Below, piece by piece: positions 32,652-56,925 of a stretch of 64,000 nucleotides of DNA (position 1 is its first letter; the number at the start of each line of letters is the position of its first letter). Below the pieces are notes generated by a model. That model ran no database searches. It saw only the letters and a program-made list of their open reading frames with translations, and was not told the origin of the DNA. The position numbers and the translations under genes were made by a program. The stretch covers positions 1 to 64,000 of the forward strand of contig JADGJC010000034.1 in assembly GCA_027596075.1 (NCBI GenBank), in the 5' to 3' direction. Source of the DNA: Rhizophlyctis rosea. Lineage: Eukaryota > Chytridiomycota > Chytridiomycetes > Rhizophlyctidales > Rhizophlyctidaceae.

Positions 32652-33199
32652 TGTGAACGACCAGCTTGACGAAGATGGATAGCACGACCTGAAAACAGAG
32701 CCGTCACTTGGGCGACGACGACTGAATGCCTGCTCACTGGCCGGAAGCGCAGAGGGACGAGCTCCCCTATCGCCTATCGACTGTTGGTACTTAATGCCGA
32801 AGATGTGCCAGTGTTCTCATGGCGGTTGTAGAAGTGTGAGGTGAGGAGAGGGAGGGAAGGAGAAGAAGGTAGGCTCGGATGTCTGACGCGACCTTCAGAA
32901 TCCAGGCTGCAATCGCGTGTCACCATCATAGTGTGGATGGAGTGGCAACAGGGGTTTGCTCCTATTCAACACAAGTTTCCAAAAAGAATCACTGACATTT
33001 AACACTTCCATCCGCAACCTTCCGACACCATTTCACGCGACCTGGTGGTGCACGTCTCCTACTACACTCTTCACACAAGTTCTTGACTTCGGCAGCTTGG
33101 CAATGCTCGGAGGTGTGAACACGACACACAACTCATGGAGGCCTTATACGAACTTGTTGCACACACGCAACACAGAGGTTTTCTTCTTTACTTTGTGAG
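32652..33199. promoter_or_regulatory. Upstream region of the WDR44-like gene
   Basis: About 550 bases without a supported gene, between the WDR44-like start codon and the structured RNA candidate. A purine-rich run (32835-32870) stands out. It should contain the minus-strand gene's promoter. Confidence 0.4.
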
Positions 33200-33645
33200 G
33201 ATTATATCCACTGGTAGGATTTGAACCTAACTCAGGGACGTTTTCCAAAAATCATGAGGACCGAAGTCCTCATGGAGTTCGCAAGACAGTCAGCAGCCTG
33301 TAATGCTCTCTCTATATGGGGGGACGCTGGGACCCGACGAACGGGCAAGAACCCGCTCCCCTCCACCCCATTCAACATCTTATCACCAAAACCCGTGTTC
33401 CGACGAACGGTTCACGTATTGGCCTTAACCTCTTAACCCTTTTACTCCCGCGACAGTCAAGGCCGGCGAACGGTTCCCTTGATGTCCCAGGTGGCCAAAG
33501 CCGGCGAACGGTTCCTTTGGAGGACACTAGGATCCGGTGTGAGACAGCCCCCGAAGGGGGACTGCCTCGGGGTAGGCATCTCCTGAAATTACAAGGAATA
33601 AAATAGCGAACGAGGAAACAGGATTAGCATTTCTTATATAGACTT
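33200..33645 (-). ncRNA. Structured RNA candidate, copy 1, with tRNA-like T-arm
   Basis: On the minus strand, in order: a TATATAAG box (33640-33633); a strong hairpin with a C5/G5 core and TTC loop (33566-33543); four copies of CCGTTCGYCGG (at 33511-33501, 33473-33463, 33410-33400, 33345-33333). Two of these sit in longer helices that covary (TCAAGG/CCTTGA and CCAAAG/CTTTGG, plus-strand view). Then come a 9-bp hairpin (33274-33253), TTTTTGGAAAACG, and GGTTCAAATCC (33227-33217), which folds as a T-arm with stem TAGG/CCTA. The same order recurs at 56.5-56.9 kb. There is no coding frame across it. It may be a pol III-type non-coding RNA or a tRNA-tailed element; no known RNA family was recognised. 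Confidence 0.45.
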
Positions 33646-34694
33646 TTCGGACTGCGCTTTCGAGGGCTTGCGGGCTTGTGTGCGTAATGATGAGCTGCCC
33701 CTGTAAATCAATGATCGACATTGGTAAACAAAAGCGACTGAGAAGTGATGGGATGGCACTGTCACTATAATTGCTCCTACTTGCAATTTCACGCCAGGAA
33801 GTTCAACGAACTTGAATGCAAAAACATTGAAGTTCTTCCACGCAAAGGGCACTTCCTCTACCCTTTTCTGGTTTGGATGTCTTCATAGACCATTGTGGGC
33901 AGACGGCGTTGGGAGCGCAAGAATGCACCATTATGGATGCCACAGTATTTCTCACTATCGGCATTGCCCCCTCAGCTAATTTATGGTTGATGACGGGCCA
34001 CGGCTGCACCTTGAACTCCCTTCAAATTGATATCACCTCTGTGAAAGTGGACGAGCCCCAATTCCCGAAGGACCCTTGGGTCTTTGACGTATGCGCCTTC
34101 AACCACGAGATGAGCCACTCGGCTCACTCCACCTCCGGTGTTCACTGTTGTCGTCCGAATACCAGGAGGGCGCAGCACCGGACCCATCTAACAACACCTG
34201 CCATAATCGGCAACATGCATGAGACACAGAAAACGACCGGATACGAATAAAGCCCAGATGCATGATGCGTGCTTTTCATAAAGGGCTGTGATACCGTTCA
34301 CACCTTCTTGCGATGCGCCCTTGATGATTTTGATGGAAAACTCTGTTTCATTTCGTGGGTATTGAACAATGTCCATGAGATTGGGCAGATGAGTCAAGAT
34401 TCACGAAATTTCCAAGCATAGTGTGTTGGCAGTGTTATGGAATCTAGATGGGTTGTGAAGACACCTCATACGGGTAAACTTGTTGGCGCAAGTTGTTCAC
34501 TTTGTTTCCGCATCCTTACCAATCCGTACCACAGCGTTGCGCGAAGTGATGTCCTCTCATCCGTGACTGCTGCTTGAGGGCCCGCCCATGCAAAAAAGGA
34601 TTAGATTTCACCAATATATATTGACTCTCTGAAGATCCGCGGCTGTTGATCATAGACTTTGAACCACCACTTTCTGAATCGACGTTCGCATATT
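33646..34694. other. Stretch with protein-like fragments, no gene resolved
   Basis: Minus-strand frames at 33634-33852 (NFNVFAFKFVELPGVKLQVG), 33803-34009 and 34188-34397 look partly protein-like and lie in a row, which could reflect a decayed minus-strand gene. I could not connect them by splicing. The last 300 bases are the upstream region of the plus-strand gene at 34695. Confidence 0.3.
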
Positions 34695-55880: not shown

Positions 55881-56466
55881 GGTGCGACGGAAACTGTGAG
55901 GAAGGAGAACAGCGAATGGTGGGGAGAAAGTGGAGCGTGGAGGAATGCGACTTTATGTATTCATCGCGGCTAAAATAAGCTGTTCACAGGTTGGCACAGC
56001 ACGCCATTTGCTGACGCGATCTGCGGAGCTGTAACGCCAACTTGCTAGGGTCCTATGCACGAATGCAGCTCTTTTACCCGCCTGGTGGAATTTTTCCCTT
56101 CGGTAGTCTACCGCCCAAAAGGGACTGATATCTCTTGAAATCATTCAACATCGACAGTTTGTTGGGCAAAAGGTTTGGCCGCTTGAGGAAATGTCAAAAG
56201 CATGGCTTGTCGTACATCTCTCCTTCCCACTGGACCGAATCACATGTCCCTTCTGCTTCCTTTTTTCATGATAGAAAGGATGCGATATAAACTCGAGCGT
56301 TGGTTGTTTGTTTACTTCGCTTTCATTATGTAATGCATCCTTACATCATGTCCGTCCGTCCCGTCAATCCTGATTGGATAACACCGGCCAATCACTGAGT
56401 GATTGATTGACACTGCGGATCACCAGACCCCAAATAGACCCACCCCAAAAAGCGCAGTCGCAAAAT
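55881..56466. promoter_or_regulatory. Upstream region of the GT8 gene and of RNA candidate copy 2
   Basis: About 590 bases between the minus-strand GT8 start and the plus-strand RNA candidate. It contains TATAAA at 56285 (plus strand) and no supported gene. Confidence 0.4.
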
Positions 56467-56925
56467 TCTATAAAAGAGGTCGCGCCCCTCACACTCTCCC
56501 TTCTTTCTCCCAGGGATTTCTTTTTACTCCTCAGTCATTCTGAGAGTCGACTGCCCCGGTTTGTCGAGATACCCAATACCCTTGCGAGGGCTGGGCCTCG
56601 GCAACACGGCGATACGGAATACCCTTGCGAGGGCTTCGCCGCCACGGGGGGTTTACAGGGGTAAAGGTTCAAGGCCGAATGGGATGTTCTCTTGCGAGGG
56701 ACTCCGGGTTCGGATAAGGGGTCCTGGTGGTTGGGGTGACGGATGTCCCTTGCGAGGGCTCCAGTGACCCCTTTTTATGAGAGAAGTAGACCAGTCTTAG
56801 CCCGAGGACTGGTCTATGAGCTCTGAGGGGAGGTGGAGACTCAAGCCCGTGGGTCGATACCTTCCTTCTATATCAATTTTTGAAAACGCCCTGTGTTGGG
56901 TTCAATTCCCACTGTGAGGGATACT
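56467..56925 (+). ncRNA. Structured RNA candidate, copy 2, with tRNA-like T-arm
   Basis: In order: TATAAAAG (56469-56476); CCTCACA (56487-56493); four copies of the hairpin CCCTTGCGAGGG or CTCTTGCGAGGG (56579-56590, 56622-56633, 56689-56700, 56747-56758); a T5 run (56772-56776); a 10-bp hairpin (56787-56816); TTTTTGAAAACG (from 56877); and GGTTCAATTCC (56899-56909) in a T-arm with stem TGGG/CCCA. TGTGAGG (56913-56919) follows directly and can pair with CCTCACA near the 5' end, which would close a tRNA-like acceptor stem around a 420-base insert. Copy 1 at 33.2-33.6 kb has the same order of elements and similar spacing. No coding frame runs through it. Confidence 0.45.

Follow-up and report, generated by a model that had tools for sequence, protein, structure and literature searches.

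The 64,000-nt stretch of Rhizophlyctis rosea DNA analysed here (the window) holds two similarly built elements in opposite orientation, copy 1 on the minus strand (33177-33657) and copy 2 on the plus strand (56452-56920), and raises the question of what kind of gene combines a TATA box, an array of short hairpins and an apparent tRNA-like arm. A preliminary description had presented them as two members of one structured family with the same order of elements. Every element it named in copy 1 is present on the minus strand. The hairpin spacings it reported hold for copy 2 (43, 67 and 58) and for the first two intervals of copy 1 (38 and 63), but the third is 66 rather than 67. The hairpin pattern exceeds chance: tolerating one mismatch, 1.7 matches would be expected in 64 kb, and copy 1 has four exact occurrences within 178 bp. 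We regard it as highly probable, judging from sequence features, that the family to which both copies belong is of snRNA type. The features of copy 1, in sense order and with other family genes named by contig, are as follows.

33650..33657, minus: upstream element GCGCAGTC; in one orientation or the other it also precedes, as an exact match, U1, U2 and two of three U5 genes
33633..33640, minus: TATA box, sequence TATATAAG
33569..33578, minus: UGCCUACCCC block, kept in A-type genes (UGUCUACCCC in C625a)
33541..33568, minus: 5' hairpin H0, its pairing kept and its stem sequence varying between genes
33482..33527, minus: hairpin H1, outer helix GUGUCC/GGACAU, inner helix CCAAAG/CUUUGG, apex CCGUUCGCCGG
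33457..33482, minus: hairpin H2, stem UCAAGG/CCUUGA, apex CCGUUCGCCGG
33423..33442, minus: central conserved stretch AAAGGGUUAAGAGGUUAAGG, from a six-gene alignment
33386..33422, minus: hairpin H3, outer helices CCAA/UUGG and CGUG/CACG, apex CCGUUCGUCGG
33320..33361, minus: hairpin H4, apex CCCGUUCGUCGGG
33501-33511, 33463-33473, 33400-33410 and 33334-33344, minus: the four CCGTTCGYCGG hairpins
33253..33274, minus: long hairpin H5, CATGAGGAC-UUCG-GTCCTCATG, just 5' of the Sm-like site
33245..33252, minus: Sm-site-like AUUUUUGG, of the same motif class as in the U1, U2 and U12-like genes of this genome
33239-33251, minus: U-run element TTTTTGGAAAACG
33206..33239, minus: 3' terminal stem-loop with loop GGUUCAAAUCC, earlier called a T-arm, covarying in seven genes
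33217-33227, minus: loop sequence GGTTCAAATCC of the 3' stem-loop
33177..33190, minus: downstream element TAAAGAAGAAAACC, resembling an snRNA 3' box, 62 nt on from where the Sm-like site starts

Copy 2, which contains the only occurrence of TTTTTGAAAACG in the window, reads as follows.

56452..56459, plus: upstream element GCGCAGTC
56469..56476, plus: TATA box TATAAAAG
56561..56604, plus: hairpin H1, outer helix UUGUCGAG/CUCGGCAA, apex CCCUUGCGAGGG
56607..56641, plus: hairpin H2, apex CCCUUGCGAGGG
56675..56713, plus: hairpin H3, outer helix CCGAA/UUCGG, apex CUCUUGCGAGGG
56733..56771, plus: hairpin H4, apex CCCUUGCGAGGG
56787..56816, plus: long hairpin UAGACCAGUC/GACUGGUCUA, with a similar loop on a different stem in C625b
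56875..56883, plus: Sm-site-like AAUUUUUGA
56888..56920, plus: 3' stem-loop with loop GGUUCAAUUCC, weak taken alone, an alternative fold being lower in energy (z 0.15)

The general layout of the genes in the 5' part is GCGCAGTC, TATA box, unconserved leader, UGCCUACCCC (A-type genes), H0, H1 and H2. The 3' part continues with the conserved centre, H3, H4, further hairpins, the Sm-like site, the 3' stem-loop, a gap and the 3' element. In copy 1 the leader spans 54 nt, and 15 nt separate the 3' stem-loop from the 3' element. The TATA position reads CATAAAAG in C614 and TATAAACG in C625b, and the conserved centre of A-type genes is AGGGGUUAAGAGGUU or a near variant. H5 is absent from C625a and not evident in C334. 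By eye only, a long-range UGCCU/AGGC pairing would close the body of the RNA, and this reading was set aside.

Searching the genome for additional copies, as had been suggested together with a check that all keep four internal hairpins, yielded seven further members, but the hairpin number was not constant. BLAST, pattern searches and inspection of flanks place the two copies in a dispersed noncoding RNA family of at least nine genes in this 44.1-Mb, 634-contig fungal genome; the count is a lower bound from searches by patterns, DNA and families. The neighbouring WD40 gene has its best match in a Rhizophlyctis rosea protein, at 65% identity across 71% of the query, and this one protein points to a probable chytrid source. 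Used as a DNA query against the whole genome, copy 1 recovered C68:100974-101426, C614:9718-10099, C625:16778-17125 (C625a) and C334:189370-189598, and copy 2 recovered C625:31724-32073 (C625b); whole-genome queries with C614 and C625b added no members. A pattern of the U-run plus GGTTNAANNCC matched eight places in the whole genome, against none for the reversed control, and these were the seven genes already known and a new short gene, C625c (C625:26928-27189). The ninth member, C625d (C625:13196-13486, minus), came from BLAST between the fetched stretches. It has a 5' hairpin in common with C625c and its own TATA box, Sm-like site and 3' element.

The nine genes measure about 200-450 nt and fall into subfamily A (copy 1, C68, C614, C625a and C334), subfamily B (copy 2 and C625b) and the short genes C625c and C625d. 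Six of the nine carry four hairpins, C334 carries two, C625c a single apex-like sequence that is unformed in the lowest-energy fold, and C625d none of this type; the short genes C334, C625c and C625d nevertheless retain the TATA box, Sm-like site and 3' stem. Models built from alignments and run on the fetched loci recovered C334, which is outside model R1, at 25 bits and C625c, which is outside model R2, at 39.6 bits. Model R2 also gave weak matches to U2 (22 bits, E 0.027), RNase MRP (E 0.19) and a U4atac-like gene (E 0.24), and one chance-level match in the window (E 0.13).

Four of the nine genes cluster in about 19 kb of contig C625, and the window has two in a span of 24 kb. A Sm-plus-box scan of two additional C625 stretches found no more members. 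Homology ended at the gene borders when the window was compared with six 10-kb stretches around copies: flanking DNA was not shared, and none of the 93 window reading frames had a match in those stretches. We also observed other repeated stretches of 40-75 bp among the family genes in the two C625 loci L048 (C625:12000-21999) and L049 (C625:22001-32000), for example L048:2416-2488 with L049:6261-6335 (87%).

The claim that the RNA is under structural selection is supported by covarying helices. We used an alignment-free arm-swap test, in which the pairing of each 5' arm with its own 3' arm was compared with its pairing with the 3' arm of another lineage; flanks of a set length served as arms in every hairpin but H0, whose arms were picked by hand. 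Swapped arms equalled the native ones in 3/38 cases for H0, 3/38 for H1 and 6/38 for H2, compared with 10/26 for H3, 10/26 for H4 and 10/38 for the 3' stem. By this test, covariation is clear in H0 and H1, present to some degree in H2, and slight in H3, H4 and the 3' stem. Several outer helices have kept their pairing and not their sequence. Whole-RNA folding energy was clearly lower than in shuffles only for copy 1 (z -3.9) and copy 2 (z -2.3), with z between -0.5 and -1.7 in the other five genes tested, so minimum energy alone would have missed the structure.

Compensatory and disruptive differences were also counted, a check that the preliminary description had suggested. Counted pairwise on hand-drawn structures, compensatory pairs were present, but broken pairs were not few: copy 1 versus C68 had 4 compensatory, 5 one-sided, 8 broken and 2 gapped pairs, C614 versus C625a had 2, 5, 11 and 7, and copy 1 versus C614 had 8, 5, 18 and 4, respectively. 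Alignment register accounts for some of the broken pairs, namely in H0, H5 and the apices, although the class is still not small. Copies that lacked the hairpins, or showed random decay of paired positions, were to have counted against an RNA under structural selection. The outcome was mixed. The number of such hairpins is two, one and none in three relatives, which differ by whole modules, and the apical stems still pair in all six four-hairpin genes and in C334; elsewhere, the pairwise counts show broken pairs too.

These differences bear on a reading of the family as a dispersed, partly decayed, snRNA-derived SINE-like repeat without function. Such a repeat would account for multiple copies at unlinked sites, for the missing 3' element in copy 2 and C68, for the modules absent from some members and for the broken pairs. 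It fits less well with a family of only about nine copies found, each of them divergent, in which H0, H1 and the 3' stem have stayed paired through compensatory change, the promoter and 3' element are kept in most members and the apices are homogeneous. Moreover, the body is conserved and the leader is not: in the close pairs, leaders differ at 22/52 and 22/43 sites, compared with 35/214 and 32/219 sites in the unpaired body. We consider a functionless repeat very unlikely.

The 3' end of the genes points to the class of RNA. Sm sites near the 3' end of an RNA follow the consensus A U4-6 G R, and an Sm-like site of the type AUUUUUGR is present in 9/9 family genes. The U-run TTTTTGGAAAACG is best read as a candidate Sm-protein site of this type, and GGTTCAANTCC as the loop belonging to a 3' terminal stem-loop. 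The change from TAGG/CCTA to TGGG/CCCA between the two copies, reported earlier for the stem of a T-arm, is indeed present in the sequence. The reading as a tRNA-like T-arm did not hold up, since the 3' domain of an Sm-class snRNA is laid out in this way, with a covarying stem-loop behind a U-run, and the flanking elements match those of the genome's own U1, U2 and U5 genes. Aligned across seven genes, 91.6% of the 83 cells of the 3' stem are paired, and 4/12 pairs have changed on both sides. Its covariation score of 0.321 was reached by 0/500 shuffles and by no slid version of the structure (highest 0.151); the number of doubly changed pairs was reached by 24/500 shuffles and the number of pair types by 48/500. 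We note that these shuffle figures are not probabilities, because the rows are related and the alignment that was scored also supplied the structure. The 3' region of copy 2 did not beat its shuffles in folding (z 0.15), and the other six regions had z between -1.5 and -4.0; 3' stems also appear in the folds of C625c and C625d.

Known classes of structured RNA did not account for the family at the loci tested. ARAGORN found no tRNA in the window, where only the T-arm-like loop is present, and none in L048 and L049, which between them cover C625a, C625c, C625d and the greater part of C625b. Rfam at permissive thresholds gave only unrelated sub-threshold matches at copy 1, copy 2, C625c and C625d, and covariance models of the spliceosomal snRNAs (U1, U2, U4, U5, U6, U11, U12, U4atac and U6atac) had no match at these four loci. 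RNase P and MRP RNA were rejected, as their covariance models did not match at copy 1 or copy 2 and the MRP gene lies elsewhere; a whole-genome search for RNase P found none, with a control that was uninformative. U6 was likewise rejected, as a whole-genome search placed the U6 genes elsewhere. We found instead the marks of the Sm-class gene type, namely an Sm-like site, a 3' stem-loop behind it, and the genome's own snRNA promoter and 3' element.

The same 3' sequences could, alternatively, belong to U6-like RNA polymerase III genes, with a TATA box, a TTTTT terminator and a downstream B box (GGTTCAANTCC), so that transcripts would stop at the U-run and the T-arm-like element would serve as promoter DNA. 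In 8/9 genes (not in C625d) a T5 run does follow the TATA or near-TATA box and a B-box-like motif the T5 run, and the loop GGTTCAAATCC fits the B-box consensus of Pol III genes. However, the stem around this loop covaries like RNA. The 3' stem is thus probably transcribed, and the U-run is probably not a transcription terminator. The context of the U-run is also that of the genome's U1, U2 and U12-like genes; in the three U5 genes the U-run is followed by CC rather than GR. No T4 run lies in the 80 nt behind the 3' stem in 6/8 genes tested.

A tie to snRNA genes came from the 3' element. In 7/9 genes it is present at 12-14/14 letters, at a distance of 61-63 nt from where the Sm-like site starts; the best match behind the copy 2 stem-loop was 7/14 and behind that of C68 8/14. 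A scan of 142 kb for the Sm-like site plus the element returned these seven genes and nothing else, and two control strings returned one match (C625d's own element, offset) and none. The exact 14-mer TAAAGAAGAAAACC has 13 places in the genome, compared with one for the reversed control: three family genes, RNase MRP, U2, U6atac, a U12-like gene, the two loci L025 and L033, and four unassigned places. A looser genome-wide pattern of U-run plus element had 12 places and none in the control, and these were six family genes, U1, a U4atac-like gene and four unassigned places. Following up U5, we found that all three genes found carry the element (11-12/14) 20-24 nt behind the matched end. Of the three U6 genes, none carries it (7-9/14). 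Among random 140-nt stretches, 36/3000 scored 11 or more, some of these being real elements, and 135 scored 0, presumably because they are masked.

The genes at these loci are MRP at L034/L016 (C607), U2 at L032 (C334:321648; Rfam 99.6 bits), U6atac at L029 (C261; 43 bits), U1 at L054 (C117) and three U5 genes at L068-L070. The U1 match scored 61 bits, under the cut-off of 69.5, with E 3.2e-13, and we take the locus to carry the U1 5' end. L028 (C257) is only probably U12 (25.1 bits, E 0.099) and L062 (C621) only probably U4atac (29.6 bits, E 0.11), both under the cut-off of 53. U6atac and these two probable genes make it probable that the genome has a minor spliceosome. Spliceosomal RNAs of the U12 type have been described in Chytridiomycota (PMC2846911; PMC10639083, which names Spizellomyces punctatus), so minor snRNAs are to be expected in this genome.

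Upstream, the 8-mer GCGCAGTC occurs exactly, in either orientation and no more than 110 nt upstream of the TATA box, in U1 (both orientations), U2 (reverse), 2/3 U5 genes (one each way) and 3/9 family genes, and within one mismatch in 7/9 family genes. In random stretches it was found exactly in 31/5000 and within one mismatch in 351/5000. The best match upstream of C625c and C625d was 6/8, and the element was absent upstream of one U5 gene, the U12-like, U4atac-like, U6atac and MRP genes, and 3/3 U6 genes. The distance from the start of GCGCAGTC to the TATA box is 17 or 24-26 nt in seven family genes, compared with 35-60 nt in U1, U2 and U5.

For transcription by Pol III, these flanks cut both ways. 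The 3' element is common to U6atac and MRP, which end in T-runs, so the element is not proof of Pol II, and the upstream element sits nearer the TATA box than in U1, U2 and U5. Against this, the family shares its upstream element with U1, U2 and two U5 genes, whereas all three U6 genes lack it, and none of them has the 3' element either. We judge U6-like Pol III genes to be an improbable explanation. An snRNA-type family with the Sm-class layout is our preferred reading, and its RNAs would probably be transcribed by RNA polymerase II and probably assembled into Sm RNPs.

The hairpin array is what sets these genes apart. The apices follow the consensus CC-N-UNCG-N'-GG, and it had been pointed out that they are homogeneous within each copy and different between copies. 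Edit distances and permutations agree with this across the six four-hairpin genes. The mean apex edit distance was 0.86 within genes (36 comparisons) and 3.96 between lineages at the same position (48 comparisons), and only 1/216 lineage-level permutations was as homogeneous, the observed arrangement itself. The lineage types are CCG-UUCGY-CGG in copy 1 and C68, CCA-UUCG-UGG in C614 and C625a, and CCU-UGCG-AGG in copy 2 and C625b; C334 has CCG-UUCG-CGG. Two kinds of exception to the consensus occur: copy 1 and C68 have the extra Y, and in C68, C614, copy 2 and C625b single hairpins have a pair that is inserted or altered.

Homogeneous apices could have arisen through gene conversion or internal duplication rather than through a shared partner. 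H1 and H2 are alike beyond the apex, differing on average at 6.2/20 positions of their 10+10 nt flanks within a gene, as conversion would produce. H3 and H4, on the other hand, share only the apex: their flanks differ from those of other hairpins at 14.3/20 and 14.9/20 positions, close to unrelated sequence, which leaves little homology for conversion. We hold homogenisation of this kind to be unlikely, and in the form of conversion limited to the apex it is the main alternative to a lineage-specific partner.

Another possibility is that the hairpin loops base-pair, by kissing or antisense contacts, with gene-specific RNA targets and not with protein. A gene-specific sequence repeated several times would suit such pairing, and an excerpt on HSUR1 describes an Sm-class RNA that binds mRNAs (PMC13158664). 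We considered the sequence GCGAAC before the Sm-like site of A-type genes as an internal partner, which does pair with the copy 1 apex, but it was rejected, as it did not co-change in C614 and C625a. Base pairing with RNA targets seems somewhat unlikely to us. Conversion and base pairing are both compatible with an snRNA-type identity for the family.

Gene-specific apices within one genome would make a single shared partner inadequate, and a partner specific to each lineage would explain them. Under the preferred reading of Sm-class, snRNA-type genes, each RNA would present one short hairpin ligand several times over, and this ligand might be bound by an RNA-binding partner specific to the gene lineage. 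That the family RNAs act as multivalent scaffolds or decoys in this way is a tentative proposal, plausible but short of an even chance. The more particular version, in which paralogous nuclear Sm-RNP RNAs each display a private hairpin array that co-evolves with a paralog-specific partner, is more doubtful still; if true, one genome would hold several orthogonal hairpin-partner pairs built on an snRNA gene chassis. Taken as one joint reading, a paralogous family of Sm-class, snRNA-type noncoding RNAs with a scaffold function appears moderately probable to us, a grade that is itself a compromise.

Bacterial CsrB/RsmY decoy RNAs titrate an RNA-binding protein with several copies of one small hairpin. 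The logic proposed here would be alike by analogy, whereas the two differ in hairpin motif, in the kind of gene and in the domain of life, and we do not claim homology. To our knowledge, Sm-class RNAs outside splicing are rare, and hardly any come from fungi. The family resembles the genome's spliceosomal Sm-class genes U1, U2 and U5 in its upstream element, TATA box, Sm-like site, 3' stem-loop and 3' element. Compared with the spliceosomal snRNAs (U1, U2, U4, U5 and U12), the four-hairpin members are longer and have gene-specific hairpin arrays, and by eye the family has no recognised spliceosomal 5' end or pairing motif. As excerpted, PMC7919456 describes the Dictyostelid Class I RNAs as about 60 nt long with one stem and an 11-nt motif; they are likewise lineage-specific multi-gene noncoding RNAs with a shared upstream element and a compensatory stem, but the family genes here, at 200-450 nt, combine an Sm-like site with arrays of hairpins. 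Herpesvirus saimiri HSUR1 is similarly an Sm-class RNA outside the spliceosome, but it is viral, and the excerpt of its source does not name a hairpin array for it (PMC13158664). Among the literature matches listed, a small coverage that says little, there was no chytrid snRNA-like family. The family of snRNA-like genes is undescribed, with no credible Rfam match at the four loci tested.

Short motifs behind noncoding RNA genes have precedents. In Giardia, according to the text excerpted from PMC3510501, one short 12-nt motif stands behind many noncoding RNA genes and serves 3' end formation, as supported by RNA end mapping, whereas the element described here comes from sequence comparison alone. 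The human 3' box consensus GTTYN0-3AARRYAGA, as quoted in the available part of PMC5493778, resembles AAAGAAGA in the 3' element, which is one base off in AARRYAGA.

Several paralogs with up to four hairpins changing together may be a natural record of co-change between an RNA ligand and its partner. The working definition of an snRNA-type gene used here, upstream GCGCAGTC, a TATA box and the 3' element TAAAGAAGAAAACC, could also expose further noncoding RNAs. The loci L025 (C13:71471) and L033 (C566:153501) are structured and related to each other. Both contain a long stem, which in L025 reads CCGAGCTCAC...GTGAGCTCGG, and, a short way ahead of TAAAGAAGAAAACC, a T-arm-like sequence, either GGTTCGATCC or GATTCGATCC; at both, Rfam gave no credible family (E 0.05) and ARAGORN no tRNA. 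At L027 (C152:61619), which has no credible Rfam family, a TATA-like box is followed by some 200 nt and an exact 3' element, and this locus is possibly a further snRNA-type gene.
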